64,000 bases of DNA from Dendrophyllia cribrosa (Eukaryota > Cnidaria > Anthozoa > Scleractinia > Dendrophylliidae), in NCBI GenBank assembly GCA_024195265.1, contig JAJLRJ010000009.1:11040291-11104290 (forward strand), read 5' to 3'. Of this stretch, positions 30,201 through 63,871 are shown piece by piece; positions within the stretch are counted from its first letter, which is position 1; every line of letters begins with the position of its first letter. The position numbers and the translations under genes were made by a program. The notes beneath the pieces were generated by a model. The model saw nothing but the letters and a program-made list of their open reading frames with translations, was not told the DNA's origin and searched no databases.

Positions 30201-31180
30201 GCGCGCTGCAGCCAATAGGGTTTAATTGTTTAATTGTATGCAAGTTCGTATTTGTAATAAACCGCATTTCCGTTAATAGCAAATTTTGAAATGTTGTAAG
30301 CAAGCCTTAGTGCAGTAATTCTCCTGTAGAGGAAGGCCGTGTGGCCAAAACATTGAGAATAAACCTGTCAAAAGTCTTGACTGGAGTCAGAGTTTATTGT
30401 TTTACAAGTGAAAATTATATATACCTGTATATATGTATACACACATATATATATATGTTGTAGTTAATTTTTTATTTCAGGTAATTTTCGTTTTTCCTTT
30501 GTTTCAAATTCATTAGCATATATTACCATATCCAAAAACAATGGAAAAATAAAAATTACCTGAGATAAAAAATTAACTACAACATATATATAGTTATATT
30601 AATAGTTATTGACTATCTCTCATTGTTTAGGCTAACAAAAACATTCATTGTCTTCTAGTACCATGTCCAAACGTGTTTGTCCAATTAAACCCAATTCAGC
30701 TGACACTTGACACTACAACCTGTGTGTGGTTCAATAGCTTCATACGAAGCATTCTTGGACAGCGAGTAAGTAATGTCCCCATATTAACCTGGTCTTCATA
30801 GACCAGGGATTTTTTGGCATCAAGTTAGCAGAACACTGCTATAATTTCACTTAGCTTATTTCCATGTTATATGGCATAATGCCACCAAGTATACAACTTT
30901 ATAATATGACCGTATGGCCCCGCTGACGCAATCCTACAGAAAATAGAATCGCAAGGTGATGTGAGCGGGGCCGGACGGGTTGACGTGAGCCGGTCCGGAA
31001 AAAGCTGTCTGGCCCCTCTCAAGTTCAAGCGACCTCACACTGCATGACTATTCTTGTACTTTCTAGTCATATTATAAAATACTTATTGACAGAGTTAGGT
31101 TGGGCCAGACGGGAAAATATTTGGCTCTCGGTCATGGTGTACGGACCTCGCTGCGCTCGGTCCATACGCCATGACCTCAA

Positions 31181-31223
<43 letters not shown>

Positions 31224-34200
31224 GCATAATATTCAAAAGAGCACTTTACCAATACTATTTTGTTCAGTATTAATCACTATCTCACCAATCTTGTAACAGC
31301 TATATTACTTCTATGTTTATATTCCTTTCTTAGTAGTGTGTTTTCTCTTTTTCTTAAAAAAACGTAATTTAGTTATAGGGTATATAATTAGTTTACCTAT
31401 ATCTTGCCCTTCTCCATTTTTTTTTCTTATCTTGTTAACTTCAAAAAATATATATTTTTAATGATATAATTGTCACTTTTTATATACTGAATGATTTTAC
31501 CGAGTTTAAATAAAGTTATATGTATGTATGTAAAAAATGTATGTAATAATAAAAAATGGAGTAAATAAATAAATAAATAAATAAAACTATAAAATTGGAT
31601 AAAAAGATTCTATGGAGCAAAAGAGAAGCAGTAGTTTGCAAATAAAGTGCAGGATTACAAGGATGGAAGTGGATTACAGTTCATCAAATTTGATTTTATG
31701 ACAGGCAGTCAAGAAATCAAAATTGCCATTCTTATAGAATGTTTACTTTTTTCTGTTATTTTTCCTCTTTCGTCAATACTTTGTTTTCATCACTTTTGCC
31801 GATTTTTCTTCCTATTTCAAGATAATAAAGCAAGCTTAAAGCAATGAAAACACAATAATTCCATCAGCCAGGACACTGTCCCCTTTACAGATGTTAACTT
31901 TGAATCATTGTTTCTTTTCAGACATGGTCCACGGGCTCACCTGAACAAGCCAACAAGCCCTCAAGTCATATTGATATTAGAATTGAAGCCCTCATGCCTA
32001 AGGTGGGTCTCCTTTGGTGTGCTGTATTACTGGTTCCGATGATCATTGCAGTAAGAGTAGTTGAATAGTTATAACACTAGACTGCAAAACAGTCCGTATT
32101 TTTTGCGCGAGTCCTCCGAAAAAAATGCGCAACCGAAAAGATCTGGAGCGAGTGTGATTACGTGGAGTGAGACTGGGGAGTTTTTTTCCTTGCCTCAAGC
32201 GAGGATCGGCGCTTCGCTCCTCTCCACGCCTGTCTAGGTGCTTCACGCCTCTTGCTTCGAACCTCGCATGGCTTTAACAGGAAAAAACCGACTGTTTTGC
32301 AGTCTATTATAACACAGGATTGTTTTTTCCAGACTTGGCATTCTACATGTATGATAAAATACTATCTGTGAACTACGTAATCATCATCAATCAGTATGGA
32401 GTACCCTGTATTATAGTTAGTCTCACCCATGTAGTCACTTGGGATGTAAATCAGGACGTTTCAACTGCTTATTGCTAGCCTTTATCAGTTGACGAGGTTG
32501 ACTGGTTACACGCCACCATTGGTGTCACGATGGTCGGCTGTGATTGGTGGAACTCAATCCTCGTCAACTTCCAATAGTCATCAGCATCAAATTTCCCCTT
32601 GTGGTATCAATGGATAGTCAAACAAACAGATCATGAGAATTAAGGAAATGATCAGCCAAGATGAACCGCCTTGATATTTGAACAACTTCTCCCAACTGTT
32701 ACTATAGGAAATGTAAGGACACCAGTAAGGAGAATGGGACTTACATGTAAAGGGTTAGCTTGTGTGGCTTAGAAGACCACATACATGTGTATGTATCAAT
32801 GGCAGCCCTATCTCCATTATGAGCATGTGAAAGAATAGCAAGACTTGCTCATTTCTTAGCCTGCGAGTAAGCTCCTGTACTCGGGGGCATAACCCGAATC
32901 CCCCCCCCTCCCCCTCCCCCTTCCCCCTCCCCCTTCCCCCTCCCCCCTCCCCCTCCCCCCCTCCCGCTCCCCCCTAACCCCTGAGCTCCAGAGCTTGCTC
33001 ACGGGTTACTTACTCATCTATTCTATCTCATGTGATGCTTTCTTTTCCAGATTATAATCCCTTGCCCAAGCGATCCCTGTGCAGCCTATAAAGAATCGCG
33101 GCCCCAGGCTCTCCAGGCCCAAGCATCTCAAGTGTTCATCACGAATTCAAGGACTGGGTACAAGTCTACCCAGACAGACATGTTGATGTTTCTGCAACCT
33201 TTCCTGGCCTCGAAAGTTTACACAGATTTTAACAGCTTCCCCTCCATGAGCAGCGATGTACAGCCTTTGCCGAACTCGGCTTGGGTTAATGACTGCAGTT
33301 TGTTGGTGAACAATGGCAAGGTTGATAGAGTCATGAATGGTGTTTGCCATGATGTTTATGACACTCATCAGCCCTCACAGGTAAGGACATTTTGTTAGCA
33401 GTCACACTAGTGATCCATCAAATAAATAAATCAAAAACTTTATTTAACTTCGAATTTAAGATAGCAAACATGCTAATATCTCCGAAGAAAATAAGTTACA
33501 CAAAAGAAAGAAAAAAAAGGCATGGCATAGATTCTAAGTACAGTCAAACCACTTATCGTAAGCGACCACCTCTCCCAGGTGACCACTTGTCTATTATACC
33601 AAATTTTTATCAATCAAATCATCCGAACTATTAAGAAGCTAAATCCAAAATCCGGGCCCAAAAACAGGATAAATCCGTAATCCGCTGCATTAGTAAGATC
33701 CACAAATCCGTTACCTTTTTCTTTGAATCCGGGGAAAATTATTTCTCAAATCCGCCGATCCGTAGACCAGTTTACCCCCCACCCCCACCCCCACCCCCTG
33801 CCCGTAAATAAAAATAACCACAGCAGCTCCACTCCCTGAGGCTTTAGCTTAAACATGTGCAAGAATTCAGTCATCAGCCATTACTATCTAACTCAACTGC
33901 AGATTGCAGATGAATAATCAGTGTCTATGCTCCGTTTTTAATGTTAACAGGTTTGGTGCATTTCTGCAGAACAAGTATGGCTGGACTTTCTTGGCATTGA
34001 GGAGGCAAATAACCGGCCAATGCCCTTCATTGATGCTGTCCCCATCAATGTGTGGATTGCTACTCCTGTACCCCTCCAAGACGACAAAAACACAACCGTC
34101 AAACCCCCTATGAAACGCACTCAAAGTGCCAGCCCTCTGAACTCGCCTCCCAATAGAAGGACGAATTCAGAAATGTTATCTCAAGCGAGGAAAGCTTCTG

Positions 34201-36131
34201 AGCTTTCATTATCTCCGAAACACCGAGCTAACACGGCAGCTCCATCACTTGTGTCCTCAAATTCGATTGGTTTGCACAATAGTGATCCCAGTGTTAGCCC
34301 CGTTCCTGAGGCTCTAAACACAACGAACCCAAGTGATTTGTCGGCGCTCGATCGACCTCCTCCCGCTTATGAGCTGAGAAATGAAGCGCACAAGCCAGCC
34401 TCGGTTGTGAATGAACAACCGCCACCATACGAGACATTGACCCATAATGGGCCTACTCTACCAGGAGCTCCCTTAGAAGAAGCACCTCCGCTGCCTGAGA
34501 AGGCTCCCCTCTCTGAGAGCCTGTTGAATGGTTTGACAGCAACAGAGAGGCGTTCAGAACAGGAGCTTAGTTTAGCGTCCAAAGCAGATCTGAGCTTACT
34601 CATGCACATCCCACAATGTGCTCATGTTCAGTTGGACCATTTTCAATTTGTATTTCTTCTGCGTATGCAGGAAATGCTAGTTAAGCTGCAGGAAGATTTA
34701 GAGAATGGCCAAGCTCCTCAGACAAACCATGTGAGTGAGTCAGGAGACTCTCTACCTGCGGTGTCATTTTCTATCCTTGCACGAGAAGTAGACTTGAACA
34801 TTGTGCTTCCTCCAGCGCCGGACCGTGAACCATCACATCTGGACAGGGATCAAAACATTAGCCGCAATGCCAGCAGTCTCAGCAGCTACTTAGAAACTGG
34901 TGTTGTATCAGACAGTGGTTGTCAATCTCCCGATGTTATTGACTTCAAAGCTCACTCTAGAACCGACTCAGATGGAGCTCCACAGTGGAAAGATGGGTTG
35001 CAATCCAGCACGGAAAATCGTAGTCCTAGAGCTAGCGATGAGCACGTGTTATCACCTCGACCCAACTCATCACAGTCTGTATCTCATACTTCAGGTCGTG
35101 CCAGTGCGTCTTCAGCTCCTGATTCCGAAGGCTGGTTGATGGTCGCTGGCAACGACGGCAAGTCCACGTCTGGTCGAGTCCAGAGCAGGACAGACAGTGA
35201 CGCGAGTAACTTCAGTAGTCAATTGGAAAGTAGCGTTTCCAAAGATTCCAGTAAAAAGGATAAAAAAGACCCCAAAATGGTGTCGATTCTTTCCATTCAA
35301 GGCGAAGAAGTCGAAGCTGGAATACATTTTCAGGGATATGAGAAGGTGATCAAGATAATTTCCCCAGAAATCAAACTGGAGGAGCTTGGTGTGCTTAATT
35401 TTGACAAATATCTCAACAAGAAGTCCTTCAGGAAATCCTCTACAAAGACCACACTCTCTCCTGCGTCAGAGGCCACTCCCATGGTGCGCATGCGCGCGGT
35501 GTTTGGCCCCTCTGCTGAAAGGTTGGAACCAACAGCTGGGGAGCGAGGTTTCATGCACGTCAAAGCCAACGGTGTTAATGGCGCTTTGTTGGTAAGCACT
35601 TTAGGAAGCATGGCTGAATGCCTCGAGGATGAAGTTCTGGTACCTCCGATGCCTTTCTTGATAGAAGTGAACAACTCGAATGTGAGTATTAACAACGACA
35701 TGCCTCCCACGCTGGTATCAGCGCCGTTGGCCATTCCGGTGGATTTAAACATCGAAAACATCTCAATCCGGCGAGCAAACACTGGTGTCTTCCACATCAG
35801 GCCAATGGCCGCTGACTCTCAGGAGCGTGGTGGCGAACCGGTTACCACGCCAATGACACGTCAGGAATCAATCAATGCCAGTCAACTGAGCCTGTCAGAT
35901 TCAGCCTCGGTGTGTTCGCGTGCCGAGAGCTTGGAGAATGAGAAGCAGTGCCTGGTTGCTCAGGTGTCTGTTTCCCGTGCTGCACTGCAGTCGTTGCAGG
36001 AGGAGCGTGACGCCTTGTTGAAGACCATTGAAAGGCTGCAACAAGAGTTGTCATTTTCAAACCGCGAACAGGACTTGTTACAAGAAAAAATGACGAGCTT
36101 TCAGAAAGGAGGAAGAAAGGGATACAGATAG
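21262..36131 (+). CDS. BLTP3: Bridge-like lipid transfer protein 3 (UHRF1BP1/UHRF1BP1L, SHIP164 family), 11 exons
   Basis: Coding exons: 21262-21305, 21431-21593, 22604-22642, 24355-24464, 25441-25708, 26628-27284, 29443-29803, 30659-30765, 31922-32002, 33051-33380, 33951-36131. The frame closes through every junction to 1446 residues, matching about 1440-1464 for the human paralogues. The family forms rod-like proteins with a hydrophobic groove that move lipids between membranes; SHIP164 acts on early endosomes and trans-Golgi-derived vesicles. Seen: the N-terminal chorein signature (FTKNLSPNKI...GEGELHNLELDE) in exon 2, IHWTRLKTDPICLYLDKVEV across exons 3-4, the RGEVLTFKEITW block in exon 5, and LLLDDILWVLTQSQLEAL in exon 6. 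The large last exon has a Ser/Pro-rich disordered region with two PPxY motifs and a C-terminal coiled coil (about 35919-36105). The start ATG has A at -3. All introns are GT-AG except 21594-22603 (GC-AG). Confidence 0.95.
21594..22603 (+). other. BLTP3: GC-AG intron of BLTP3
   Basis: The only frame-preserving join between CNRISAK and IHWTRLKTD uses donor AAG|GCAAGA at 21593/21594 and acceptor TTTACAG at 22597-22603. The GT sites just downstream would break the frame into the next exon. The intron interior is AT-rich with no repeat that I can define. Confidence 0.85.
22832..23213. mobile_element. MITE with GCCTGGTCGCACTA ends
   Basis: GCTAAGCGCCTGGTCGCACT at the left and the inverse TAGTGCGACCAGGCCCTTAG at the right. 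About 380 bp, non-coding, in BLTP3 intron 22643-24354. Confidence 0.75.
23357..23410. repeat. Perfect short hairpin
   Basis: TACCCTGCGAGCAGAGCCTC (plus TTT) and its inverse separated by about ten bases, in a BLTP3 intron. Confidence 0.85.
24850..24945. repeat. Single arm of family F palindromic MITE
   Basis: ATTGACTAAGTGGGAGGGCC and GGAAAATATTTGGCTCGAGG match one arm of the complete element at 31082-31223; the other arm is missing. Confidence 0.7.
25187..25345. mobile_element. Palindromic MITE, family D, copy 1
   Basis: GTTGTAGTTCAAAATGAATC and its exact inverse form ~60 base arms, with a centre resembling ...GACAAAG.... Just upstream of BLTP3 exon 25441-25708. Related copies at 26396, 30453, 54833 and 55795. 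Confidence 0.85.
25858..26005. repeat. Family E inverted-repeat element, copy 2
   Basis: GTGTTTCATCAGGATATCCA and AGGTGTTTGGATACCTGATG as in 8990-9125; the arms are inverted to each other. Confidence 0.7.
26396..26540. mobile_element. Family D palindromic MITE, diverged copy
   Basis: Has the family centre (TTTGTCTCAGATTCATTACG ... GACAAAGAAAAA) and the AACCACAACA end; the left arm is weak. In BLTP3 intron 25709-26627. Confidence 0.6.
28960..29110. mobile_element. Family G palindromic element, copy 1
   Basis: AAAGCTGACATTTCGAGCAC and its inverse CGAAATGTCAGCTTTTGAAT surround an inner GCCCTT/AAGGGC pair. Relative at 37367-37580. Confidence 0.7.
29185..29265 (-). ncRNA. tRNA-Thr(GGT)-like head of a SINE
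   Basis: The minus strand has a good A box (TTAGCTCAGTTGG), a possible loop CCGGTAA (anticodon GGT), an intact T arm (ATGGGTTCGATTCCCGT), but a poorly paired acceptor stem. It continues into a repeat tail (CCTGATTTTTTTTCAGGC), so a SINE or tRNA pseudogene is more likely than a functional tRNA. Confidence 0.55.
30088..30154. repeat. Perfect 29 bp palindrome
   Basis: GTCTTGAGCAAGCTTAGTAT and nine further bases are repeated as their exact inverse after a nine-base spacer. In BLTP3 intron 29804-30658. Confidence 0.9.
30453..30590. mobile_element. Family D palindromic MITE
   Basis: ATGTTGTAGTTAATTTTTTA and the inverse at the right end, with the family centre CAAATTCATTAGCATATTAC-like sequence. 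It ends 68 bases before BLTP3 exon 30659-30765. Confidence 0.8.
31082..31223. mobile_element. Family F palindromic MITE (complete)
   Basis: CTTATTGACAGAGTTAGGTT is paired in inverted form with AACTCAGTCAATAAG-like sequence at the right end; the inner arms (GGGAAAATATTTGGC and inverse) are near perfect. Confidence 0.85.
31558..31587. repeat. (AAAT)n microsatellite
   Basis: About six AAAT units in a BLTP3 intron. Confidence 0.85.
32078..32306. mobile_element. MITE with 9 bp target duplication (MULE-like)
   Basis: Ends TAGACTGCAAAACAGTC and GACTGTTTTGCAGTCTA are exact inverses. The nine bases TTATAACAC occur directly before (32069-32077) and directly after (32307-32315). A 9 bp duplication is typical of Mutator-like elements. 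No transposase, so non-autonomous. In BLTP3 intron 32003-33050. Confidence 0.85.
32900..32976. repeat. Pyrimidine (C/T) tract
   Basis: Nearly 80 bases of CCCCCT-type sequence, purine-free but for one G, 75 bases upstream of BLTP3 exon 33051-33380. Could form triplex or quadruplex structures. Confidence 0.9.
33770..33800. repeat. C-rich simple tract
   Basis: CCCCCCACCCCCACCCCCAC in BLTP3 intron 33381-33950. Confidence 0.8.
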
Positions 36132-49467: not shown

Positions 49468-52400
49468 ATGTACGGCCTGATTCTGGAGAATTTCCGTGTC
49501 GAAATACTTGAGAGATACGGTGAACCCGTGTGGAACAAAATTGTGGAAAAATCCGGAGTAAGGAATCACACATTTGCAACGCACAAAATCTATTCGGAGG
49601 ACATCATGGTTCGCCTCATGCAAGCAGCATCAGAAGTGACTAAACACAGTTCGAACGAAATTACTGAGGATGTTGGTTTCCATTTTCTTGGGTTTATAGG
49701 GCAATATGGCTACGACCGAATTTTAAAAGTCCTTGGAAGACACATGAGGGATTTCTTGAGTGGCTTGGATAATCTTCACGAGTACTTGCGATTCACGTAC
49801 CCCAAATTAAAAGCACCTTCGTTTTTCTGCGACGACGAAACCGAAGAAGGTCTCAAACTTCACTACCGCTCCTCACGAAAAGGATTTCTGTATTACGTGA
49901 TCGGTCAGATCAAAGCTGTTGGTCGATTTTTCTATCATTTAGATGTTGGGGTCGAAGTTTTGGAGTACACTGAAAATAAGGAAGGTAGCAATGCCTTGTT
50001 TCAACTCACGTTCGACAACAGTGTGTATATGGAGTCACGCCGAAGGCCAAAGCGGCATTCTGTCATTTCATTGAACGGGGACACCGAAAACTTGAAGATC
50101 CCCATAGACGTATTTTACGAGGTGTTTCCTTTTCACATTGTTTTCGATCAAAACATGGTGATTTCCAGCACTGGGAATAGCTTGGAAGCGATCTTAAGTG
50201 ATCTTCCTGGAAAAATGGTAGCTTCGCGGTTCACTTTGATTCGACCCTTCATGGAATTTACGTGGGAAAATGTAAGTTTTATTCTATTATTATTAATTTG
50301 TATATTATTATGAAAGCTTTAGATAGGGTTGATTTTGATTCCTCATTAATTTTCTATTTGATTGTGAAAGCTTTAGGTACACCAGAACCAAGAAAAATAT
50401 TACTATGCGTTTGTATGGGTTTGATATTTATTTTGGTCACGAGGAACACAGAAATTAAAGCTAGTGTCCATTTTTCAGAAGAGGGTATAATGTCTGTAAA
50501 GCGTATTCAACTATTTTTCTCTTTAGATTAGTCCTTTTAATTTCGTTCTTTGAAAATTAACATCCGTTTGTAATCTATGTAACAGAAAAAATATTAGCAA
50601 AGTTTCCAATCTAGTACATAAATCTGTACTGTCAGAATTAATTTGTGGACTTCAATTTGTTATTTTCTTGTGTTGGAACAAATTTGAAAAAAGATGCACT
50701 GTATGTAGACGATATGAATAAATATTTATAAAACTTTGGATGTTACATGGCAACCTTTGCCAGATAATGTAACATCCAAAATTATGTGAAAGGCGAGCAA
50801 TGCAGCTGTTGCTATTGTAGTAATGTTGAAACTTTTTATTTGTTACGATATGATAGTTGGCTTTTTTTAGATACATGATAAATTAATTAGGTTCTCTGAA
50901 TTTTCTTTACACAGTCAAAATTTACAAAAAAAAAAATTTGCAGTCAAAATTTAGAACATGTGCCAAACAAGAATTTCTCACATAAATTTTTATTCGCGGA
51001 TATAAGATTATCTGTAATTTTATACAATTACATAGAAATTGATATCTAAGGCATATTTTGTGCAATTTTATGGCAAAACGTGACCAATCTATTATTTCTA
51101 AACATGACTGCCTTGTGATGTTTTTAGCAATAATGGTGAAAGTTAAGGTTGTCAAAATCTTTTCAAAATGTAAAATTGCCAATAAAAGGGTCCAGCACAT
51201 AAATAGCCAAAATAAAGACCAGAAATATTTTTTAACTATGAAAAAAAAAAACATCATGTTGCACATTTAGTCAGACTTTTTCTTAAAATGAGGATTTTCC
51301 TTTTAATAATAAAAATATAAAACAATCATCATATTTAGACTTCATACTTCCAAATTTAAAACTCAGTCATGCTAAATAATTCAAAATAATTGGCAGTATA
51401 TATGGCGGCAAGGCTAATGCAAATTATTTTTAGGTCTTCAAATTTACTATTAATGAACACATTTTTAATTTAACTTTTTGTGTTCATTTTCAGTCATTGT
51501 TTTATCAATCTTTGTTTCTGTAGTTTAAAATAACTGTAAAAAAAAAAACTGGTAAATTTTTAATGTTTTGTTTTGTTGAGAATTGATTTTTTTTCTCATC
51601 AATACTGAGAAACATTTTGTTTATATTAATGCAATTGGACTTGTACATGTGTTACTGTGTTGCTTCTAGTACGTGCATGTATCTACTTTTAAATGTTTTA
51701 TTTCCCTTCTCTTCAGTATGGAATACGACCGGAAATGTTTTCTTGTTGGGGGAGTAGTTTGACCAACTTTCTTAAGCCTTTCCATTAAACAAATTGATCT
51801 CAGTTCCAATTAGTGTTATCACATGCAGAGATATTGTGAAAGGAAATTATACAAAAACATTTGTCTGCAAAATAGGAAGCGCTAACTGCAAAGAATTTAA
51901 TTGCTACTAAAAATATCCTCCCAGTGCGGTAGGGAGTGAGGTTACATAAATTCAATACAAAAATCCAATTTGGCTCATTGTTGTATTTTGTAAACATTCA
52001 TACAACATGTATATTGTGTATGTTCCCTAGACTACACAGCTAATTTTGAACAAAATAAAATTAAGATAACCGAACTGCACGACTGTAAGTTTCATCAGTT
52101 AACTCAGGGAAAAAATGATAAAGTAGTGCAAAAATGTTAGTTATTATCAACACCGCATTTAAATATTTTACATCAGTACATCAGAAAGAAGCATAAATAA
52201 TTATTTTCCTTTGTTTGACAATATGCTATTATTTCCCATTTTTTAAAGGAATTACCTTTTTTCATTTTTTTAAATTTTATTTTTGATAAGTATTTAAAGT
52301 CATGATTCAATACAAACATACATATGTATGTAGGCTAACCTAAAATGGAGTGAAAAGATGCCATATCGTGCTTCAAAATGCAGGAAGAGGTGCCTCTACA

Positions 52401-55400
52401 AGCCAAAAACTTCAAAATTTTCTGGGGAAGAATGCCCCAGACCCAACTGATGCCAAGTCTCTCAGACACTTTAAAAATACTGATCTGCCAACTTGTAGAA
52501 AGCAATGAAAAAAAACTGTCTACCCCACTTGTGTTACACCCGCTTTCAGTGTTATGTGCATAGGCGACATCTTTCGACCATCGTTCCGCTATGTAGTCAG
52601 ACCTGGCATCCAAAGCATGCGTTTATCATAAACTTGGCGCCAAATGTGGCGGATTCTGAGTTTATTACTGCTATGAATATATTCGGTCTTCCGATTCCTG
52701 ATGGGGTAGAGAAGACTAGTCGAGAAGTTGTGTTATTTACAAAACTGCAAATGGGAAAGCAATTGGACAGCCGCTAAGTTTTCATCACCCGATCACAAAA
52801 GATCTGAGAGAGACCAAACATGTCATCAAGACAAAAATTAACTGTAACAGAGACATGAAAATTGATGTTTGTAGTTCTTAGTTGAGAGTCTCTCAACCAA
52901 ATCCTATGACATGACCATTCAAACAAAACCTCTTCAGCAGTACTTTTGCATGATACCATTTTTTCAATATTTCATAAATTAAATGAAGTTTGGAATTTTT
53001 CTCGAATTTTTTGAGACAATTCTGTAAACAAGTGCTCCAGTGATTCAGCATATGTTTGCACAAATTTACACTGATGTGAAAATTAAAGAAAAATGGCGAA
53101 CATTCTGGTGGTACATAAATGTACAACTTGTATACATGTATAAATAACTTTGTGTGGTCTCTAGAAGACATGACATTCTTTTCAGAATCCAGGCTGTCAA
53201 CTTCCTCTTTTTCCATAATTTTCTGAGGCCTTCCTTTTTTCTCTCTACTGTATTTTTTTTAGGAAAATCTCCAGGCAACTGAAAGATGCTGTTGTGTGCT
53301 TTAAAATATAGAAAAAGGTCTAAAACATCAAAATGTTCTTAAGGAGAATACCTTTAGGCCCCTAAAGGCAAACACTGGGTACCTGGCCCTTTAAAAATGT
53401 ATCTGCCAACCTGTAAAAACTCCACTTGTATTAAAACTGAAGTATCACTAAATATTTCATACATGTACTGTATGCATTATTTTTTCTTAGTTCATGATTA
53501 AGAAACATTTTAAAGGGGCTTTGATGTTGGGTTGTTGGGTCTATGCTTCATAGAATATCATGTACCCCTACTTTTTGATTTTTCCTGTTTTTCTTTTCCC
53601 TAATTAATTTGTTCGAAATTTTTCTATTTTCCCAATTTTCCTTCCCCCTATGCAATGCTTGAAATCAGTTGTATTTTAGGTGCATAGTACAAACCAGGTT
53701 TTGGAATGGCATATGCTTATAATTAATGAATTGATAAATGTTCAGGGACCTTGTTTCAATTTTTGAACAGGGAATCCACTTATATTCACTACTTGTAAAA
53801 AGGTTTGATTGCCTTTAACTTTGGCTTAAACCACCAAGATCCTTGACAGCTTTTAACTGTCATTTCCTGTGTATCCTCAAACATCCTTCTAGTAATCAGC
53901 ATCAAGATCATATAATATTTATTTTTGAAGACCCTAAAATTAAAATACAATGCAGTAATACATATTTTTATGTGCTAAATGTTAAATGCCGTGAAGTACA
54001 GGTCATTGAAATATGCCAGAAATAATAGTTGATGTCAAATCAGCTGATCAATAATGCACTCTAGAGTATTTTTTAACTGTCAATGAATTAGTGAATTGCT
54101 GTTTATCATGGAATAGAAGTTTTTTTTGACACTTGCCAAAGGTTGTTGGCACATTTCAAGGAGTACTTACAAGATATAGTGCTAAATGGCTTCCGGCTTT
54201 AGTATTTAATGTGAATTTAAAGTATGGATTCCAGTTGATAATTCAAACAGGATATAAAATCATGACAGTAGTTTAAAAGTATGGCTCATCAACTTTTCCT
54301 GACGGATATTTTTATCCTATTAGTTTACATACATTTGTTAAACTTCCAGAATCCATATTATGTGAAAGCAATTCATGGAATTTACATTGTAACTTCTTAA
54401 CAGATGCTATCAATATTGAAGGGTTTAACCCTTCAAGGACAAGTGATGATCAGCATCAAATTTCTCCTTGTAATATCAATGCTTAATCAATCAGAAAGGT
54501 CATGAGAATTAAAGGACATGATCACCCAAGATGAATGTGACATTTAATATTTTAAGAAAAACATTGCCCCAATTTTTTTGGCTGGTATTTGCTTTGTTTT
54601 TCAGAAATAAAGTATGCAAGAAGTTCATGTTGCCTATAGGGCCTCTTTTTGGCCCAAAAAACCTTTCGTTTCTCCTGACACTGAATGAAAATTTAATCAG
54701 CAAAGCGATGTGTTTGGAATAAATTGGCGACATTAGCCCAATCTGAACAAAACATAAAAAGGACCCGAAAAGTCGATATACGTAGGTCAGTTTTGCCCAC
54801 AGCCTTTCAATAAATTTATTGGTATACATGTTATGGTTCAAATTGTAATTATACCAGTTTAATTTTTAGTTTCATTTGTCTCAGATTTATTTGACACATT
54901 AAGGAAGACAAAAATCAAACTGCTAAAAAAGATTTGAGTTTGAACATACACATTTTATGTATTAATATTTTTTTAATCAAAGGAATTAGCATTTTCCTCA
55001 AAGCCAGTGTTCGACAAATTAATATTTTCCTATAAAACGTGTATTGTGTCAAAGTTACTTGCCCAATTGCATTGAATGGTTGCCCAATGGAATTTTGCTA
55101 TAAAATATCTTCATCGTAAAAAATCTGACCGATTTCTGTAAAACAGTGAAAACCAATCTGGATCCACACTTGAGTTGGAAGTTTATCATTAAATCTTCAG
55201 TAACGTTTTTGTGATAAGGCAATTTATGTACATGTTCAATGACATTTGATTTTTACAGGTAAAGACTCACACAAATGTTGTGTTTGAAGTCCAGTCAACA
55301 GAGGCTATAGCACTGCCAATGGACACTGATCTGAAGATAAATGGAGAGGTGACAGAGAATGGCACAGAAAAGGAGGAGTCTGACAATCTCTGTTTCATCC

Positions 55401-58071
55401 ACCTCAAAGGACAGATGTTGTACATGGAGGAATGGAATTCCATGGTTTACCTTTCAACTCCTATGTAAGCTGTCAACTCTTCATCTTGCTTTCAATGCAG
55501 TGAATACTTGATTTATTTTATTTTTACTTACAAACATCACTAAGAAAGGAGGGGAAACCTCACAGAGCTACATGTACATGAAATGCTGCATTATGAGGAC
55601 CCAATCTGCAGATTAATCTACATACCGATATAAAAAGAAAACTGGATTGATCATACATGTACACACAAAAAACCTAAAAAGAGAACAAGCAAAAACAAAG
55701 GGAAAGTAAAGGAATATTTCACACGAAGCATGCATAGAATGTTAACAGCACATCCTGCCATCTTGACTAGAAATTGGACAGCATACAATGTATGTTGTGG
55801 TTCAAATTTTTCTTTGGTTTGAAAATATTCAAACCAGTTTAATTTTTATCTTCCATTGTCTCAGATTCATTATCATATTCGTAGACAAAGGAAGACAAAA
55901 ATCAAACTGGTTTGAAAAGTGAAATTTTGACTTTTCTAGCCGTTATTTTGTCTGTTTAGTTAATATTTATTTGCTTCTATCACTTTTGGTGATAGTTTCT
56001 TCCAATTAAAGTTAGCTTTAAGCAAGCTTCTAGCCATAATCATAAAAACACGATATTTTAGCCAGGATAGTGTCCCTTTAACAACAAAAAGTGCCAGTGG
56101 TCTGTGAATTAGCGGTGGTCAGTGGTCATTCATGTTGCGCATTAATTTGCAGTAGTTGTCAGCTTCGTTCGTGTGGCATGTGTTTATTCAGCGTGCAGAT
56201 TCTCAGCCAGCGCTGTCGGCCAATTGTTTTGGTTGGCCAAATCACGCCCGATTTACAGCCTTGACACTATATGCTAATTGTGGGTCAGTGCTACCTCCTT
56301 AAATACAGGTTGACTTTAAGCCGTATTATTATCAAAATACGCGGCCAAATAAGAAACTGCCTTCGAGAAAACACGGGTGAGTGGCGGGCGATATTGAATT
56401 TGACGGGCTGCAAACGCATTTACGGCCCTGTTTATGTTAAACCTTTTTTTCTTATTAAATAAGTTTGTACGATTTGGCCTTGTGTATTGATAATAATGAT
56501 AATCACATGACTTTTGTCGGGCATATAGTTTATTTGTGTCCCTCGTAGCATCATTTGCACCCTCGCTCCGCTCGAGCGCAAATGGTGCTACTCGGGCCAC
56601 AAATAAACTATATGCCCTCCAAAAGTCATGTGATTGTCCTATTGGCATAGTTAAGTATAATGTAGAGCGGTATTGTCGCATGGAATTCTTACGCGTCTAA
56701 TTAGCATAGTATAATCAACCATGAAAAAAAAGTGAAAAATGATAATCCCAACTGGATAAGAATGTAGATGTGTAGATGCCGGATCACTGTTCAATTGAAC
56801 ATCTCATGCAGAATCGTTGGCATTGCATTAAGGTGGCTGAACACAGTTTCACTGTACCTATGCGTCATTCATTGTCATTTTAAAACCACTAACGTCTGAG
56901 CGCCCAAAATTGGCGAGGCATACAATTAAGCAACAAGCTATATATTTTGATATTTTTGTTGAGCTTTTAGGGTGTTGCCATGGCAACATGGTGGATTGAA
57001 AATCAGCCTGCAATATTTGGTTTCTTTTATTTTCAGAAAATCTAGTCATTAGATTTTGTCCATCATTTGTCTCCAGTAAACTCGTAAAAATATTCGCATG
57101 TTAACACTGGTCTCATGTAATTTTGACAGAGGGATCTTCCGTAATTTGTGGTTTAATATGTTTGCGTTTTGTAAAAATCTCCTCTGTTAGATTTCAAATT
57201 TTTGATGGCAGGTGAGTTCGGCATATTTGGAACTATTATTGTGCCAAATTTCGTGAAATTCTAATGAGTAGTTTTCTAGAAATCAGCATGTTTCCAAGGA
57301 AAGTCGCTAAAACATCCAGTCACAATTTTTTGGTCAACTGCGCATGCGTTGCATTTGACTGGGTTCTCAATCCAAAGACAAAAACGACCAAAAAGGCAGT
57401 GTATTTCTTCAATGGTTCTATATATTATCTATTGATTCAACAAACATTTTTACGAACAACAAATTGTTTGATTTTAAGACGAAAAACAACACTTTCGCGA
57501 TCCACGCTGAGCAAAATAAAATGATCGCTGAACAGGCGCCACGTTTGTTTTTCTCAAAACTCTGCGCCCGCTGACTCACGTAAGCAGCTGAAATTGAAAA
57601 GCGCGCGCAAACTGTGTTCAGCCACCTTAACTAGTGGTTAGGATCTCAACTAGGCCGTAGAAATAGCAAGGCATCGCTACCGCAGAGGATGGCAGGACAA
57701 ATGCAAGCTAAACGGCATTGCTATGGCAACAAAAAAATGTAAAAAAAAAAACAGAGGAAATACGTCATGTAGAGGCATAGAGGGTGTACGCCAAACTGTA
57801 CGCATTCAGATACATCCAAAAATGCGCCCTTTTGTAATAGTCATATGTGGCCGCTTCTCCTAGAATTTTGATTGGTCAATTACAAGGCTATTGACTGACT
57901 TTAATGTAACAACCTTGAACACTTTTTATTTCAAATTTCAGCATTGAAAAACTGGAAATGATGCACAGTCTTGGACTGTACATTAATGACCTGAGCATGC
58001 ATGATTCCAGTAGAGATCTTGTGTTAGCTGGAACACAGCAGTCTGCAGAACTCAGATTAGCTCTTGATCAG
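49468..58071 (+). CDS. Gyc88E: Atypical soluble guanylate cyclase, Gyc-88E type (3' partial, exons 1-3)
   Basis: Exons 49468-50271, 55259-55464 and 57942-58071 join in frame to 380 residues; the rest is beyond the window. Soluble cyclases make cGMP from GTP when a gas binds the haem of the H-NOX domain. Seen: H-NOX, about residues 1-180, starting MYGL; the proximal haem ligand His104 (NLHEYL); the propionate-binding Y-x-S-x-R at 133-137; Tyr143 at the distal-pocket position. HNOBA/PAS-like region about 205-345 ([22 protein letters not shown]); [22 protein letters not shown] leads into the signalling helix. Resemblance is much closer to Drosophila Gyc-88E than to NO-sensing beta-1. The start ATG has A at -3. 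Exon 1 alone carries the whole haem domain. A 5.5 kb retrotransposon lies in the following intron. Confidence 0.95.
52335..53430. repeat. Diverged repeat pair
   Basis: 52335-52510 and 53275-53430 share the order GAAA(A)GATGC...TGC/GTGCTT, ...CTTTAAAAAT, ATCTGCCAAC, with many differences. Probably two old copies of one interspersed repeat. Confidence 0.45.
52873..53025 (-). repeat. Diverged family C copy
   Basis: Minus-strand match to the 88 bp unit (AACCTCTTCAGCAGTACTTTTGCAT as seen on the plus strand) and the adjoining body; no TTAA ends preserved. Confidence 0.65.
54833..54950. mobile_element. Family D palindromic MITE, diverged copy
   Basis: Family centre TTTGTCTCAGATTTATTTGA ... GGAAGACAAAAATCAAAC with partly inverted flanks; in intron 1 of the cyclase gene. 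Confidence 0.6.
55795..55930. mobile_element. Family D palindromic MITE
   Basis: TGTTGTGGTTCAAATTTTTC and a centre TTGTCTCAGATTCATTATCA ... GACAAAGGAAGACAAAAATC; AAACCAGTTT / AAACTGGTTT pair as arms. In intron 2 of the cyclase gene. Confidence 0.75.
56501..56635. mobile_element. Palindromic MITE, AATCACATGACTTTTG ends
   Basis: AATCACATGACTTTTGTCGG through ATAGTTTATTTGTG is matched by its inverse ending at 56635, with an inner AGCATCATTTGCAC / GCAAATGGTGCT pair. Almost a full hairpin. Confidence 0.85.
56828..57630. mobile_element. 803 bp MITE with perfect 22 bp ends
   Basis: TTAAGGTGGCTGAACACAGT (plus TT) and the exact inverse at 57609-57630. Interior AT-rich without a domain-bearing frame. 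In intron 2 of the cyclase gene (55465-57941). Confidence 0.85.
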
Positions 58072-58250: not shown

Positions 58251-58391
58251 TTTAAACATGATGGAGTTTAAAGTGCCCCTGTGATCAAATTTTGATTTTG
58301 ATTTTTTTACATTTTCGTGTACAATTAGACTTTCTTACTCATCTTGCCAAATGTCAATTCATTATGAACATCAGAAGTCATTTTATTTTAT

Positions 58392-58689
58392 TGAATGTTT
58401 TTGCCACAGCATAAACTAGAGTTAATGTTTAGCTCATTTGAACCTTGTGCCTTGCCGTCATATTATGTATTTTTCCGGCTAATTGAATTATTGTACTTTG
58501 CTTACTTACACGCGTGTCCGAACTGCCACATATTTTTAGCAGCCAATTACACTATTAGCATGCACGTGCCTCAGTCTGTTATCCAATCAGATTTGGGCCC
58601 CCTCACTGCGGTCACTTTTGGTAATGTACATCGCTCGTGGTCTATCTCGCATTCAGTTCAATTTCACTGTACAAGGCAACTGTTTATTT
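58392..58689 (+). repeat. Split direct repeat A1 (Ngaro left end)
   Basis: Identical by eye to 63141-63438. It should carry the element's promoter. The open frame through it merely extends gag upstream and also appears in A2, so it is not taken as coding. Confidence 0.9.
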
Positions 58690-58724
58690 TGTTTTTCCTG
58701 CGTTTTTCTCGCCTTTTTTCCACC

Positions 58725-59897
58725 ATGAGCGAGTACGAGAATCTCACAGCAGAAGTTCTACGTCTTCTTTGCCAACAAAAGCACCTTCCCGTCGCGGGCG
58801 AACGGCAAACCCTGATAAACCGTCTTCGAGGTACCGAACCAAGCAAATCCACACGCGGGAAAAGGCCAGCTCCACGCGCCCCAGCTAAGCGATCCAAACG
58901 CCAGAAAGGATCTGCTAGAGGCCGCTCATCCACCTCTCAGGCCAAGAACACGGCAACACCACCGTCTGTAAATGTTTCCGACGAGGAAAGCGCAACCGAA
59001 AACACTGCGCTCGAGTACGAAGTCACAGCTGACAACACGCCGCCGGGGATCTCCGTGGAGCAAATCACCTCTATCGTCTCCGCAATCGTCGATAGCAAGA
59101 TGGCCGCTCTTTCTCCTGCTTCACCAACTCAAGCAACCAACACACTTGCATTGAATCTCGGCGACCCAAACGCAGTGCAACAACTAATCTCTCCTTCAAA
59201 TGGTGACCTTGCCGCACACGTGGATGAGAAGACACGCACAGCGATCAAACAGGGTGAGTACGTTGATTTTGTGTCGCTGCTCCCCGAAAATTCGACCGGA
59301 TCTCCCAATGTAGTCGACTTGCTTACCCTTACTGTTAACGGCGAGTCCGTTCCTATACACGTCCCGGGTCAGAGGAGGTCCAAAAAGGTGCCCATCGATT
59401 CGTTCGATCGATGGTTGTCGGCCTTTGCCGTGTTCGCGACTATTCTCTTGTCCGCATTCCCACACAGGGCGGTGGAAATGTTCGCCTACATCAATATTAT
59501 TCAGTCTGCGAGCAAAAAATTCTTAGGCCTCTCCTGGCTTGCCTACGATCTAGATTTTCGTCGAAGGGCTGCCCGGGACCCCACCCTTCCCTGGAGTAAA
59601 ATTCATCCCCAACTCTATTTAGAGAAATTCACCGGTCTCTCCCGCACTGCATGCTTCACCTGTGGGGGGGTAGATCACATGTCTCATTCCTGCCCTCTGT
59701 CTTCCCATAGGGATAGGCCAAGCCAAAGCAGTGACCCCTGCAGAAATTTCAACCGGGGAGTTCCCTGCATCAGGTCACCATGCCCCTATCCCCACCGCTG
59801 TTCAGTCAACGACTGCCAGGAGTCCCACCCAGCAACCGCCCACCCCACTCACCGCCCTGGAAAGTCTACAAGGGCTGACGATCACAAACGCCGCTGA
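58725..59897 (+). CDS. Ngaro gag-like protein with SAP domain and two zinc fingers
   Basis: 390 residues. ATG at 58725 in the context CACCATGAGC, chosen because it follows the A1 repeat; an in-frame ATG at 58395 lies inside A1. Seen: a SAP-like DNA-binding helix pair near residues 5-35 (LTAEVLRLLCQQKHLPVAGE), a basic RS/RK-rich stretch (about 38-70), then a CCHC zinc knuckle (CFTCGGVDHMSHSC) and a C-x8-C-x4-C-x3-H finger (CRNFNRGVPCIRSPCPYPH) near the C-terminus. Gag-type proteins package the element RNA; CCHC plus CCCH fingers are common in DIRS-order gag proteins. The 3' end overlaps the RT frame by over 160 bases. Confidence 0.85.
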   Translation: MSEYENLTAEVLRLLCQQKHLPVAGERQTLINRLRGTEPSKSTRGKRPAPRAPAKRSKRQKGSARGRSSTSQAKNTATPPSVNVSDEESATENTALEYEVTADNTPPGISVEQITSIVSAIVDSKMAALSPASPTQATNTLALNLGDPNAVQQLISPSNGDLAAHVDEKTRTAIKQGEYVDFVSLLPENSTGSPNVVDLLTLTVNGESVPIHVPGQRRSKKVPIDSFDRWLSAFAVFATILLSAFPHRAVEMFAYINIIQSASKKFLGLSWLAYDLDFRRRAARDPTLPWSKIHPQLYLEKFTGLSRTACFTCGGVDHMSHSCPLSSHRDRPSQSSDPCRNFNRGVPCIRSPCPYPHRCSVNDCQESHPATAHPTHRPGKSTRADDHKRR

Positions 59898-61510
59898 TTT
59901 TGTATCACATCTTAAGCCACGTACACCTGTGAATATTGATTTGCTTGAAACCTACCTTGAGGGCCACCCTGATCCCAACTTTGTTTCTTCCCTTTGCCTA
60001 GGTTTAAGAGAGGGTTTTCGCATAGGCTACTCAGGTCCTCGTACCCCCACATCTTACCCCAATCTCCGCTCGGCTAAACTTCACCCAGACATCTTGGAAA
60101 AGAACCTCCTTACCGAGGTCCTAAATGGACACACTGCAGGGCCTTTCCCCTCCCCCCCGTTCAAGAATTTCCGCATCTCCCCACTGGGCCTTGTCCCCAA
60201 AAAACACTCTGAGAAATGGCGTACCATCTTTCACCTGTCATACCCTAAAACCTCCTGCACCAGCGTCAATGCCAACATCCCCATTGAAGACTATACCCTC
60301 CAGTACGTAACTATAGACAATGCCATCCACCTCCTCCTCTCCCTTGGGAAGGGTGCATTTATGTCCAAGACAGACATCCAGTCTGCCTTCCGGATTGTCC
60401 CTATCCATCCCCATGACTGGGAACTCCTAGGTATGCACTGGAAAGGGCTCTATTTTTTTTGACACCGTTCTCCCCTTTGGTCTCCGTAGCGCCCCATTCC
60501 TGTTTAACATGCTGTCAGATGCTCTTGAGTGGATAATTCGCTATAAACTCAACATTAGGGGTACCCTACACATTTTAGATGACTTTTTCATTGCCCTTGC
60601 CCCACCCCGCTCCCATTGCACTACGGCTCTGTGCAAACTCCTTACCCTTTTCACCGATCTGAACATACCTCTGGCCCCGGGAAAAACCTTTCGACCCTCT
60701 ACACAATTAGAGTTCATGGGTATACTTCTGGACTCCTCTACCATGGAAGCCAGACTCCCTGAAGACAAGTTGAGAAGGCTATGCTCACTTGTCTCAGCCT
60801 GGCAGACAAAAACCTGCTGTCGTCTTCGGGACCTACAGTCACTCATTGGCTCCCTACATTTCGCCTGCAAAGTCATTGCCCCGGGTCGCCCCTTCCTCCG
60901 CCGCATGATCACTTTAACCCGCGGCCTATCCAACCCCGGCTCCCTTATCCGCCTGAGCAAGGAATTCCACAAAGATCTAGACATGTGGGCGCACTTCCTG
61001 TCCTCTTGGAATGGGGTGAACCTTTTCCTACCCCCGTTTTCCCTTTCTCAAGATTTCATCCCCCTTTTCACAGATGCCTCCGGGTCCATCGGGTATGGGG
61101 CTTACCTTCACCCCCACTGGTTTAACGGCAAATGGCCCCCTCAACACCAACTTGGTTACTCCCCTGACATTAGTATCGCGTGGCAGGAACTGTTCCCTAT
61201 CTACCTAGCATGTGCCCTGTGGGGACCCTTTTGGTCAAATCAACATGTCCGCTTCTCTTGTGACAACCAAGCGGTTGTAGCCATCATCAACACCAAGACC
61301 TCTAAAATCCCTCGGATCATGGATCTCCTTCGGCCCATAACCCTTTTTACCCTTCAACACAATTTCACCCTGACAGCTGTTCATTTAGAAGGCCTCCAAA
61401 ATGGCATTGCTGACTCCCTTTCTCGCTTCCAGATGGAACGCTTCAGGGAGCTGGCACCAGAAGCCTCGCCTACTGGTTACCCCATCCCGGAATACTTGAC
61501 CCTTATTTAA
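59674..61510 (+). CDS. Ngaro reverse transcriptase-RNase H, with a one-base frameshift
   Basis: Open from the last stop at 59671-59673 and lacking an early ATG, so probably expressed by frameshift from gag (different frame, overlap 59674-59897). RT fingers/palm: PLGLVPKKHSEKWRTIFHLS and KTDIQSAFRIVPI. The frame breaks in a run of eight T at 60453-60460, within the motif that precedes PFGLRSAPFLFNM, and resumes in the next frame. The catalytic LDD is at 60575-60583. RNase H follows with acidic residues in LFTDASGS, AWQELFP, SCDNQAVV and GIADSLSR. DIRS-order RT. One extra T, real or a sequencing error, separates it from an intact gene. Confidence 0.85.
60453..60460 (+). other. T8 homopolymer at the RT frame break
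   Basis: Eight T following TA; seven would keep the reading frame. The only visible lesion in the element's coding region. Confidence 0.75.
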
Positions 61511-62526
61511 GCAAAAAGGTCTCTGGCTACCTCTGGGATTCATTAGCACCTTCCACCAGAAGAACGTATGCTTCGGGGGAGAAACAGTTTATCCTATTCT
61601 GCCTCAAACATGGTCTAGTCACCCCCTCCACCCCCCTACTCCCCGCTAGTGAAGTTACCCTGATCTACTTTGTTTCTGATTTAGCTGAATGTGTCAAATT
61701 TGGCACTATTAAAGTGTACCTAGCAGCGATACAAAATCCACATGCTGAGTTCAACTGCACCCTCAACTTTGCCACCATGCCTCGCTTACAAAACAGTCTG
61801 CGGGGCATCAAACGCTCCCTCGGCTTATCTCGACGTGACCGTCAGCCAATTACGCTGTATATTCTCGAATCTATTTTTCACTTGCTTCACCCCTACCATT
61901 CAACAGACATTGACACTGTTATGCTTTGGGCTGCGTTTACCCTAGCATTTTTTGGCTTTATGAGGTGCAGTGAACTCACATGTAATGGTCCTTTCGACCA
62001 CAACGTACATCTCACTCGGGGGGACATCACATTTGTCCCCAACATTTGCGCACCTAAACACATGGGCGTCCGCATCAAGAAATCTAAGACAGATCCCTTC
62101 CGGCAAACAGCCGTCATCACCATCGCCAAATCAAACTCCACCGTCTGTGCAGTGTCAGCCACAAGAGAATTCTTCCTTCAGACTCCAGATTCCACCCCAC
62201 AAAGCCCAATGTTTCAGTTTAAGGATGGTACCCTCCTCTCACGGCGCACTCTGGCCCTTAATCTACACACGCTTCTGACATTATGCGGTCTTAAAGCCCA
62301 TTCATACAACACTCACAGTTTCAGAATTGGGGCAGCAACAACTGCAGCAGCAGCTGGCCTGCCCTCCTGGCTCATAAAAATACTTGGTCGCTGGCGCTCG
62401 GATTCATACGAAAGGTACATCCACCTTCCTCAAGCTACTATACTCCAAGTACCATCCACTATGACCTCCCACCATCAAGAACACACTACTTCGCAGAACC
62501 CCACCACGTTTGACCCCTGGAATTGA
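61414..62526 (+). CDS. Ngaro tyrosine recombinase
   Basis: Open from the stop at 61411-61413 to TGA at 62524-62526, overlapping the RT frame by 97 bases in a different frame. No ATG before 61777, which would cut off the N-terminal domain, so expression by frameshift is likely. Seen: a SAM-like N-terminal segment (DSLAPSTRRTYASGEKQF), then the catalytic set of the tyrosine recombinase fold: Arg in FMRCSEL (61963), H-x-x-R in HSFRIGAA (62314-62325), and the nucleophile Tyr in SYERYIHL (about 62416). It would integrate the circular cDNA in place of a DDE integrase. All catalytic residues are present. Confidence 0.88.
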   Translation, partial: LPFSLPDGTLQGAGTRSLAYWLPHPGILDPYLSKKVSGYLWDSLAPSTRRTYASGEKQFILFCLKHGLVTPSTPLLPASEVTLIYFVSDLAECVKFGTIKVYLAAIQNPHAEFNCTLNFATMPRLQNSLRGIKRSLGLSRRDRQPITLYILESIFHLLHPYHSTDIDTVMLWAAFTLAFFGFMRCSELTCNGPFDHNVHLTRGDITFVPNICAPKHMGVRIKKSKTDPFRQTAVITIAKSNSTVCAVSATREFFLQTPDSTPQSPMFQFKDGTLLSRRTLALNLHTLLTLCGLKAHSYNTHSFRIGAATTAAAAGLPSWLIKILGRWRSDSYERYIHLPQATILQVPSTMTSHHQEHTTSQNPTTFDPWN

Positions 62527-62830
62527 ATGGAACAATCAAACTTTGTGACAAGACCTGGATTGGTCAGAACTTGTGTGACTTACACAAAGGCCCACGGGCC
62601 CTAGACTCTATGCCTAATTATCTTAAACTTAACTACATCAGACACTGCTTGGTTTAGAAATACAGAAGATAGAAGGGTGGTAACTACTTAACTATTAAAA
62701 AGAATTCTGTCTGAGGCTACTAACAGACTGCTGCTTTGCACCATCCTGGGTGGGGTTAGCCTTTCTTCCCGCTTGCTCGAACAGCTCTTTTAGCAGCCTC
62801 AGTGTGGGAGAATTCTGTTCCAGAATTAGT
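62527..62830 (+). other. Ngaro 3' spacer between recombinase and B1
   Basis: About 300 bases, no open frame of note. Includes a weak inverted pair (CAGTGTGGGA near 62800 and TCCCACACTGAAGCG in B1). Confidence 0.6.
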
Positions 62831-63140
62831 GGGGATAAGTGTTGCTGGCGACAACCCTTCAGTCCCACACTGAAGCGATGCCTGGGTTGCCTTAGCTTGG
62901 GTCGAGCAAGGTGGCCACGCCCACTACCCCTCGCTAGTCACCCCTCTAGGAGCTTGGCATAGGTACACGCCACTCAGCTGTACTCCATGACGGCCAATCC
63001 ATGGTTTCTATGCCACTCGCTGACACTAGCCCCAGTGACTGGCCTCGCATGTGGCAGGCAGCATTCGGGTCCTGGACAACACTTACCCCCCGGGCCTTTC
63101 TCCCACATAAACAGTGTCTTTCAATTGCGCGTGACATTAA
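62831..63140 (+). repeat. Split direct repeat B1
   Basis: Identical by eye to 63562-63871, starting GGGGATAAGTGTTGCTGGCG and ending GCGCGTGACATTAA. It touches A2 directly, the expected B1-A2 junction. Confidence 0.9.
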
Positions 63141-63438
63141 TGAATGTTTTTGCCACAGCATAAACTAGAGTTAATGTTTAGCTCATTTGAACCTTGTGCC
63201 TTGCCGTCATATTATGTATTTTTCCGGCTAATTGAATTATTGTACTTTGCTTACTTACACGCGTGTCCGAACTGCCACATATTTTTAGCAGCCAATTACA
63301 CTATTAGCATGCACGTGCCTCAGTCTGTTATCCAATCAGATTTGGGCCCCCTCACTGCGGTCACTTTTGGTAATGTACATCGCTCGTGGTCTATCTCGCA
63401 TTCAGTTCAATTTCACTGTACAAGGCAACTGTTTATTT
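63141..63438 (+). repeat. Split direct repeat A2
   Basis: Identical by eye to A1, from TGAATGTTTTTGCCACAGCA to GGCAACTGTTTATTT. Confidence 0.9.
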
Positions 63439-63520
63439 CCCTCCCACCCACCGCATTCCCCTTTTTTTTTTTCACCCAACCGAGGTTACCACTCTGGCCC
63501 GTGTTTATTGCGTAAAATGT

Positions 63521-63554
63521 AATAAAGTTCTTTGTTTTGCTTATTTTCAATAAA
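63521..63554 (+). terminator. Candidate poly(A) signals of the Ngaro element
   Basis: Two AATAAA hexamers (63521-63526, 63549-63554) lie in the unique spacer between A2 and B2, where the element's transcript would be expected to end. Confidence 0.55.
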
Positions 63555-63561
63555 CGGTTTG

Positions 63562-63871
63562 GGGGATAAGTGTTGCTGGCGACAACCCTTCAGTCCCACA
63601 CTGAAGCGATGCCTGGGTTGCCTTAGCTTGGGTCGAGCAAGGTGGCCACGCCCACTACCCCTCGCTAGTCACCCCTCTAGGAGCTTGGCATAGGTACACG
63701 CCACTCAGCTGTACTCCATGACGGCCAATCCATGGTTTCTATGCCACTCGCTGACACTAGCCCCAGTGACTGGCCTCGCATGTGGCAGGCAGCATTCGGG
63801 TCCTGGACAACACTTACCCCCCGGGCCTTTCTCCCACATAAACAGTGTCTTTCAATTGCGCGTGACATTAA
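63562..63871 (+). repeat. Split direct repeat B2 (Ngaro right end)
   Basis: Identical by eye to B1; marks the right boundary, after which the flank CATTTATTTCCGAGAATTTA begins. Confidence 0.9.

Follow-up and report, generated by a model that had tools for sequence, protein, structure and literature searches.

Does the window, a 64,000-nt stretch of the stony coral Dendrophyllia cribrosa (C22:11040291-11104290, within a searched genome of 627 Mb in 22 contigs), hold part of a guanylate cyclase that answers to oxygen rather than to nitric oxide (NO)? A preliminary description had reported an exon of a cnidarian guanylate cyclase with an oxygen-sensor-type haem pocket. We consider it probable that the gene encodes an O2-regulated cyclase of the type of insect Gyc-88E (88E), an explanation in which O2 binding, the sign of the response, the partner subunit and prenylation are taken from relatives or from general knowledge. 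The gene, its domains, its pocket residues (by alignment), its orthology, its catalytic residues and a C-terminal CaaX motif were established directly and are described in the following.

The reported exon (exon 1 in Table 1) is a single open stretch of 268 codons whose product begins with MYGL and which is followed directly by a GTAAGT donor. It matches the Pfam domains HNOB (E 1.2e-50) and, with its beginning only, HNOBA (3.3e-16), and no NCBIfam family was found for it. The complete coding region (C22:11089758-11134297) has ten exons in one continuous open frame with GT/AG borders throughout, of which exons 5-7 are independent PF00211 matches and the last exon lies at C22:11134148-11134297. 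The spliced product of 752 residues contains complete H-NOX, HNOBA and guanylate cyclase domains, which bears out the first reading of the exon as part of a guanylate cyclase. It aligns end to end with the database protein P0122, residues 1-568 (the first seven exons) being 90% identical with an ungapped catalytic part, and the tail being divergent and gapped with the exon 9-10 join as the least certain one. As intron 3 holds a 5.5-kb retroelement that looks recent, with 100% identical repeats, the gene might be thought to be unused, either silenced or decaying. The open frame with intact borders, the identity to P0122 and the intronic position of the element all argue against such a loss, which we regard as very improbable.

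The residues of the haem pocket lie in exon 1 and comprise the haem ligand His104, the YxSxR motif Y133-R-S135-S-R137 and Tyr143, each exactly at the position given in the preliminary description according to translation, Pfam match and alignment. Using HMMER alignments to human and Manduca beta-1, the interval from YxSxR to the next Gly is ungapped and Tyr143 falls on Ile145 of beta-1, as had been claimed. For the claim that it also corresponds to Tyr140 of the bacterial Thermoanaerobacter tengcongensis (Tt) H-NOX, the sequence alignment is ambiguous by one residue: a profile alignment pairs Tyr140 with Tyr143 by opening a gap of one residue, whereas MAFFT --add pairs it with Tyr142. Conservation was followed in 241 sequences (the window exon, the best 120 of 208 matches to one search and the best 120 of 3180 matches to another, a set biased to the 88E type). 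Tyr is present at position 143 in 239 of them, window included, and at position 142 in 115. Because of this conservation and the alignment to human beta-1, Tyr143 rather than Tyr142 is favoured as the distal-pocket tyrosine, a placement made from alignment. Both exceptions are 88E-like fish sequences with Phe (P0094 from Notothenia and P0119 from Pleuronectes) and both retain Gln147, a second polar pocket residue that the preliminary description had omitted. Gln147 falls on Ile149 of beta-1 and is Gln in 233/241 sequences, again including the window, and jointly with Tyr143 it occurs in 231/241, while His104, Tyr133 and Arg137 are invariant (241/241). In a mutagenesis study Tyr and Gln were reportedly introduced at these two places into soluble guanylyl cyclase (sGC), imitating O2-binding cyclases.

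A Tt-like pocket, as the comparison with the bacterial protein had implied, was not found, since only the tyrosine is common to both. Trp9 of Tt is replaced by Phe9 and, in the profile alignment, Asn74 by Phe73, the Asn74 stretch being displaced under MAFFT --add. This counts against O2 binding, as Trp9 and Asn74 are common to the O2 binders of anaerobes together with Tyr140 (PMC1435932). Because the equivalents of these two residues are Phe, the pocket is, judged from its aligned residues, 88E-like and not Tt-like. The absence of Trp and Asn might also mean that O2 complexes are short-lived and that the main effect of O2 is to oxidise the haem or to cause its loss, the ferric or haem-free form then setting the activity. 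Against such a sensor of redox or haem state, the invariant His104, Tyr133 and Arg137 and the conserved distal Tyr and Gln point to a defined gaseous ligand, and we consider it improbable.

In order to place the gene among its relatives a tree of 38 hand-chosen sequences, a set without corallimorpharians, was reconstructed. The 88E type and the type of insect Gyc-89Da/89Db (89D) jointly split from beta-1 at 100/100, and the window gene clusters with Nematostella and Actinostola (100/99) inside the 88E clade, so that its cnidarian nature agrees with the first reading. By this position it is an anthozoan orthologue of insect Gyc-88E, although the support of the 88E clade itself (91/79, unstarred) speaks against too firm a placement. 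Two further genes of the same genome, C12a and C12b on contig C12, had been unresolved in an earlier tree with fewer sequences. They now fall among cnidarian and bilaterian 89D-type sequences (99/96). C12a joins three stony corals (100/99), and C12b clusters with those of Acropora and Montipora (93/84, unstarred), nested in other stony corals. Taken by itself this placement makes a stony coral the probable host, or less likely a close relative of that group, while a search of the genome for COX1 gave 0 matches. A single clade of all cnidarian 88E and 89D sequences, corresponding to a lineage-specific duplication of three Tyr genes, was rejected (p-AU 9e-5, for a group named after the tree had been seen). 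Because cnidarian genes stand in both clades and the all-cnidarian clade is rejected, the 88E/89D duplication is most likely older than the cnidarian-bilaterian split, and the origin of this oxygen-sensor pair would move back accordingly far. Among the best 120 of 3180 matches there was no named protein of this type from a stony coral; clusters, isoforms and the limit to 120 make a loss in other corals an unsafe conclusion.

The catalytic residues of the window protein are complete and consist of the metal-binding Asp440 and Asp484, the guanine-binding Glu480 and Cys551, as well as Asn558 and Arg562. In the 88E sequences (P0122-P0241, the best 120 of 3180 matches, including isoforms and many moths and butterflies) the first Asp, the Glu and the second Asp are present in 120/120 and the Cys and Asn in 112/120. 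As both metal Asp and the guanine Glu and Cys are present, 88E could act as a homodimer. The 89D-type sequences of at least 550 residues (40 of 55) all retain Glu, Cys, Asn and Arg, but the first metal Asp occurs in 0/40 (Tyr in 18, Glu in 17, Gly in 4 and a gap in 1). Without this residue 89D subunits would therefore depend on 88E for the metal site, just as beta-1 depends on alpha-1. The beta-1 subunit requires an alpha subunit. This dependence agrees with a report on the fly 88E and 89D proteins, which are individually mostly inactive, together more active and activated by hypoxia, Gyc-89Da and Gyc-89Db being the reported partners of 88E (PMC11568450). A different pattern was observed in eight 88E sequences of jawed vertebrates (teleosts, coelacanth and shark; P0152, P0156, P0160, P0162, P0166, P0174, P0177 and P0219), which retain the two metal Asp and the distal Tyr, but in which the guanine Cys is replaced by Gly, the catalytic Asn by His and the Arg by Ala. 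Judged from these residues they would be an alpha-like half-site and would need a partner.

The window protein ends with STSLCNLI and thus with the CaaX motif CNLI. Cys is found at position -4 in 94 of the 120 88E sequences, and in each of these 94 the residue at -2 is Leu, Ile, Val or Met. Elsewhere between -1 and -12 each position has Cys in only 0 to 6 sequences, and Cys makes up 1.4% of these proteins overall. The 26 sequences without Cys at -4 include partial proteins and isoforms, and of the 90 whose tail extends for 80 residues or more beyond the cyclase motif, 78 possess the CaaX end and 12 lack it. Besides moths and butterflies the 88E sequences come from Actinostola, Branchiostoma, teleosts, Lingula, molluscs, sea stars, hemichordates, spiders and a horseshoe crab. 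Among the 40 long 89D-type sequences Cys occurs at -4 in two, both acidic at -2, and a CaaX end with aliphatic -2 in none; among the 15 shorter ones outside this count is the partial P0243, which has 461 residues and no listed cyclase domain and ends with CCIF. The simplest reading suggests that the 88E subunit bears a prenyl anchor and hence is a membrane-anchored "soluble" cyclase, so that the CaaX end, if functional, would locate a textbook soluble enzyme at membranes. The rat beta-2 subunit also has a CaaX end. We found no paper combining soluble guanylyl cyclase, 88E and prenylation, in a search that left most subscription literature outside, so that an earlier mention is possible. The conserved CaaX end and the probably pre-bilaterian age of the 88E/89D pair are two by-products that go beyond the preliminary description.

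The genome contains at least seven H-NOX exons matching the PF07700 profile. The distal Tyr is carried by the three of the 88E/89D type, namely the window gene, C12a and C12b, the latter two having both Tyr and Gln and ending exon 1 at the same place as the window gene. A cluster of four sGC genes lies on contig C18 (C18:47380000-47420000, L004-L007). Three of them possess the haem His, distal pairs of Ile/Ile, Leu/Leu and Met/Met and both beta-1 cysteines and are beta-like, and the fourth without haem His is alpha-like in appearance. As two nitric oxide synthase (NOS) loci are located on C21, the Tyr type exists in this animal alongside beta-1-like genes and a source of NO. The window protein might then itself be an NO receptor in which Tyr143 is merely tolerated and NO from these NOS genes is the natural ligand, all the more as most Fe(II) H-NOX domains presumably bind NO. 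Full-length human sGC with the equivalent Tyr is also fully functional (PMC9592903). However, the genome has the separate beta-like genes with Ile, Leu and Met in the pocket and both cysteines, and the cysteine sites of beta-1, which we take to be numbers 78 and 214, are occupied by Ile77 and Tyr217 in the window gene. The two cysteines are described as required for NO sensitivity and missing in the atypical type, and fly and moth relatives as binding NO weakly or with a lower affinity (PMC1435932). Since Tyr and Gln are in addition common to bilaterian 88E and 89D sequences, we regard NO as an unlikely natural ligand.

For the O2-regulated cyclase we propose a model in which the ferrous haem would be suspended on His104 and O2, which we infer to be the ligand, would bind on the open distal side, held by Tyr143 with Gln147 adjacent. 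The O2-bound form would be the low-activity state, and a drop of O2 would leave the haem unliganded, upon which the cyclase would raise cyclic GMP (cGMP). The predicted sign is thus a rise of cGMP as oxygen falls. The 88E protein may run as a homodimer and probably has a further partner in one of the two 89D-type subunits C12a and C12b, which would need it for a complete active site, and the prenyl group probably anchors 88E to membranes. The preliminary description, which had proposed oxygen sensing through cGMP, drew a reasonable conclusion from a known family, weakened by its reliance on the Tyr alone. It left out the likely activation by hypoxia, the partner subunits and the fact that the distal Tyr is the published norm of the family and not new to this coral. 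Fitzpatrick et al. 2006 (PMC1435932) gave Tyr for the O2-regulated insect and nematode clade and Ile for beta-1 and beta-2. The Tyr was said to be shared with Drosophila Gyc-88E, which is confirmed for the 88E type by the sequences of the fly Megaselia and of Manduca, and for the Drosophila protein itself by the same paper.

The sign is consistent with the activation of Gyc89Da by low O2 (PMC6041325) and with the BAG neurons of C. elegans, which are listed with gcy-31 and gcy-33 and respond to an oxygen downshift (PMC4072718). Other reports speak against it or against O2 binding as such: gcy-33 is also tabled for URX/AQR/PQR, which are O2-upshift neurons, so that worms do not show one uniform sign, and survival of anoxia was unchanged on loss of gcy-31/33/35 (PMC4072718). 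The equivalent Tyr conferred no O2 binding on full-length human sGC (PMC9592903), so that Tyr alone, as had been assumed, does not imply O2 binding. No cnidarian O2-binding cyclase was reported in the titles and abstract openings obtained from literature searches on cnidarian sGC and oxygen. Surveys of placozoans and ctenophores cover the sGC of early animals (PMC7400543, PMC10073611), the latter giving seven in cnidarians; in their available text the distal Tyr is not discussed, and the words H-NOX and atypical are missing from both main texts. If the model holds, a coral-type animal carries the gene set for direct haem-based oxygen sensing via cGMP beside its beta-1-like genes and NOS loci, which would give coral physiology named targets in tissues with possible day-night oxygen swings. 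The suggested link to algae carried by the host is made plausible only by the stony-coral placement of C12a and C12b. A wider proposal, which we hold tentatively and with slightly more doubt than conviction, is that 88E-type cyclases are prenylated, membrane-anchored O2 sensors and that the combination of an anchored 88E with an unanchored, Asp-less 89D was assembled in the cnidarian-bilaterian ancestor and is still running in corals.

Compared with known systems the window protein is closest to the Gyc-88E type. It has the same domain order as Drosophila Gyc-88E, Manduca 88E (which we take to be MsGC-beta3) and the 88E sequences of arthropods, molluscs, sea stars, amphioxus and fish. It shares with them His104, YxSxR, Tyr143, Gln147, the lack of Cys78 and Cys214, the full catalytic set and the CaaX end, in addition to the grouping in the tree. 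It differs in being cnidarian and known here from its sequence, and in a shorter tail, which beyond the cyclase motif extends for about 140 residues, compared with a median of 311 in 78 sequences, many from moths and butterflies. The 89D type shares the distal Tyr and Gln and the end of exon 1 but forms a separate clade and, in its 40 sequences of at least 550 residues, lacks the first metal Asp and the CaaX end. NO-sensitive beta-1 (GUCY1B1) is alike in domain order and haem ligand, with an H-NOX 33% identical in a fold alignment, but has Ile145 and Ile149 for Tyr143 and Gln147 and possesses Cys78 and Cys214. The O2-binding H-NOX of T. tengcongensis (1u4h) is only 21-22% identical, and this bacterial protein, named a methyl-accepting chemotaxis protein, has no cyclase and differs in its Trp9 and Asn74.

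Table 1: Exons of the 88E-type cyclase gene and the retroelement in its third intron (window positions, unless a contig is named).
Feature	Position	Strand	Description
Exon 1	49468..50271	+	Start codon, entire H-NOX (haem His104, YxSxR 133-137, distal Tyr143 and Gln147), start of HNOBA; GTAAGT donor at 50272
Exon 2	55259..55464	+	HNOBA continued; phase 0 in, phase 2 out; AG acceptor, GTAAGC donor; junction aligns with P0122
Exon 3	57942..58071	+	HNOBA continued, joined in frame; gene exits the window within intron 3
Exons 4-10	contig C22 11104695-11134297	+	Continuation of the gene beyond the window, same genome
Retroelement, intron 3	58388-63861		Two pairs of 300-nt direct repeats, 100% identical, split A-B-A-B order

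The element in intron 3 shows a weak reverse transcriptase match below the cut-off and contains a recombinase-like open reading frame (61414-62526) for which neither Pfam nor NCBIfam gave a match; the element presumably resembles Ngaro/DIRS elements. Upstream of the cyclase the window holds exons of a gene for a bridge-like lipid transfer protein of the BLTP3A/B type (26592-36131, PF24917).
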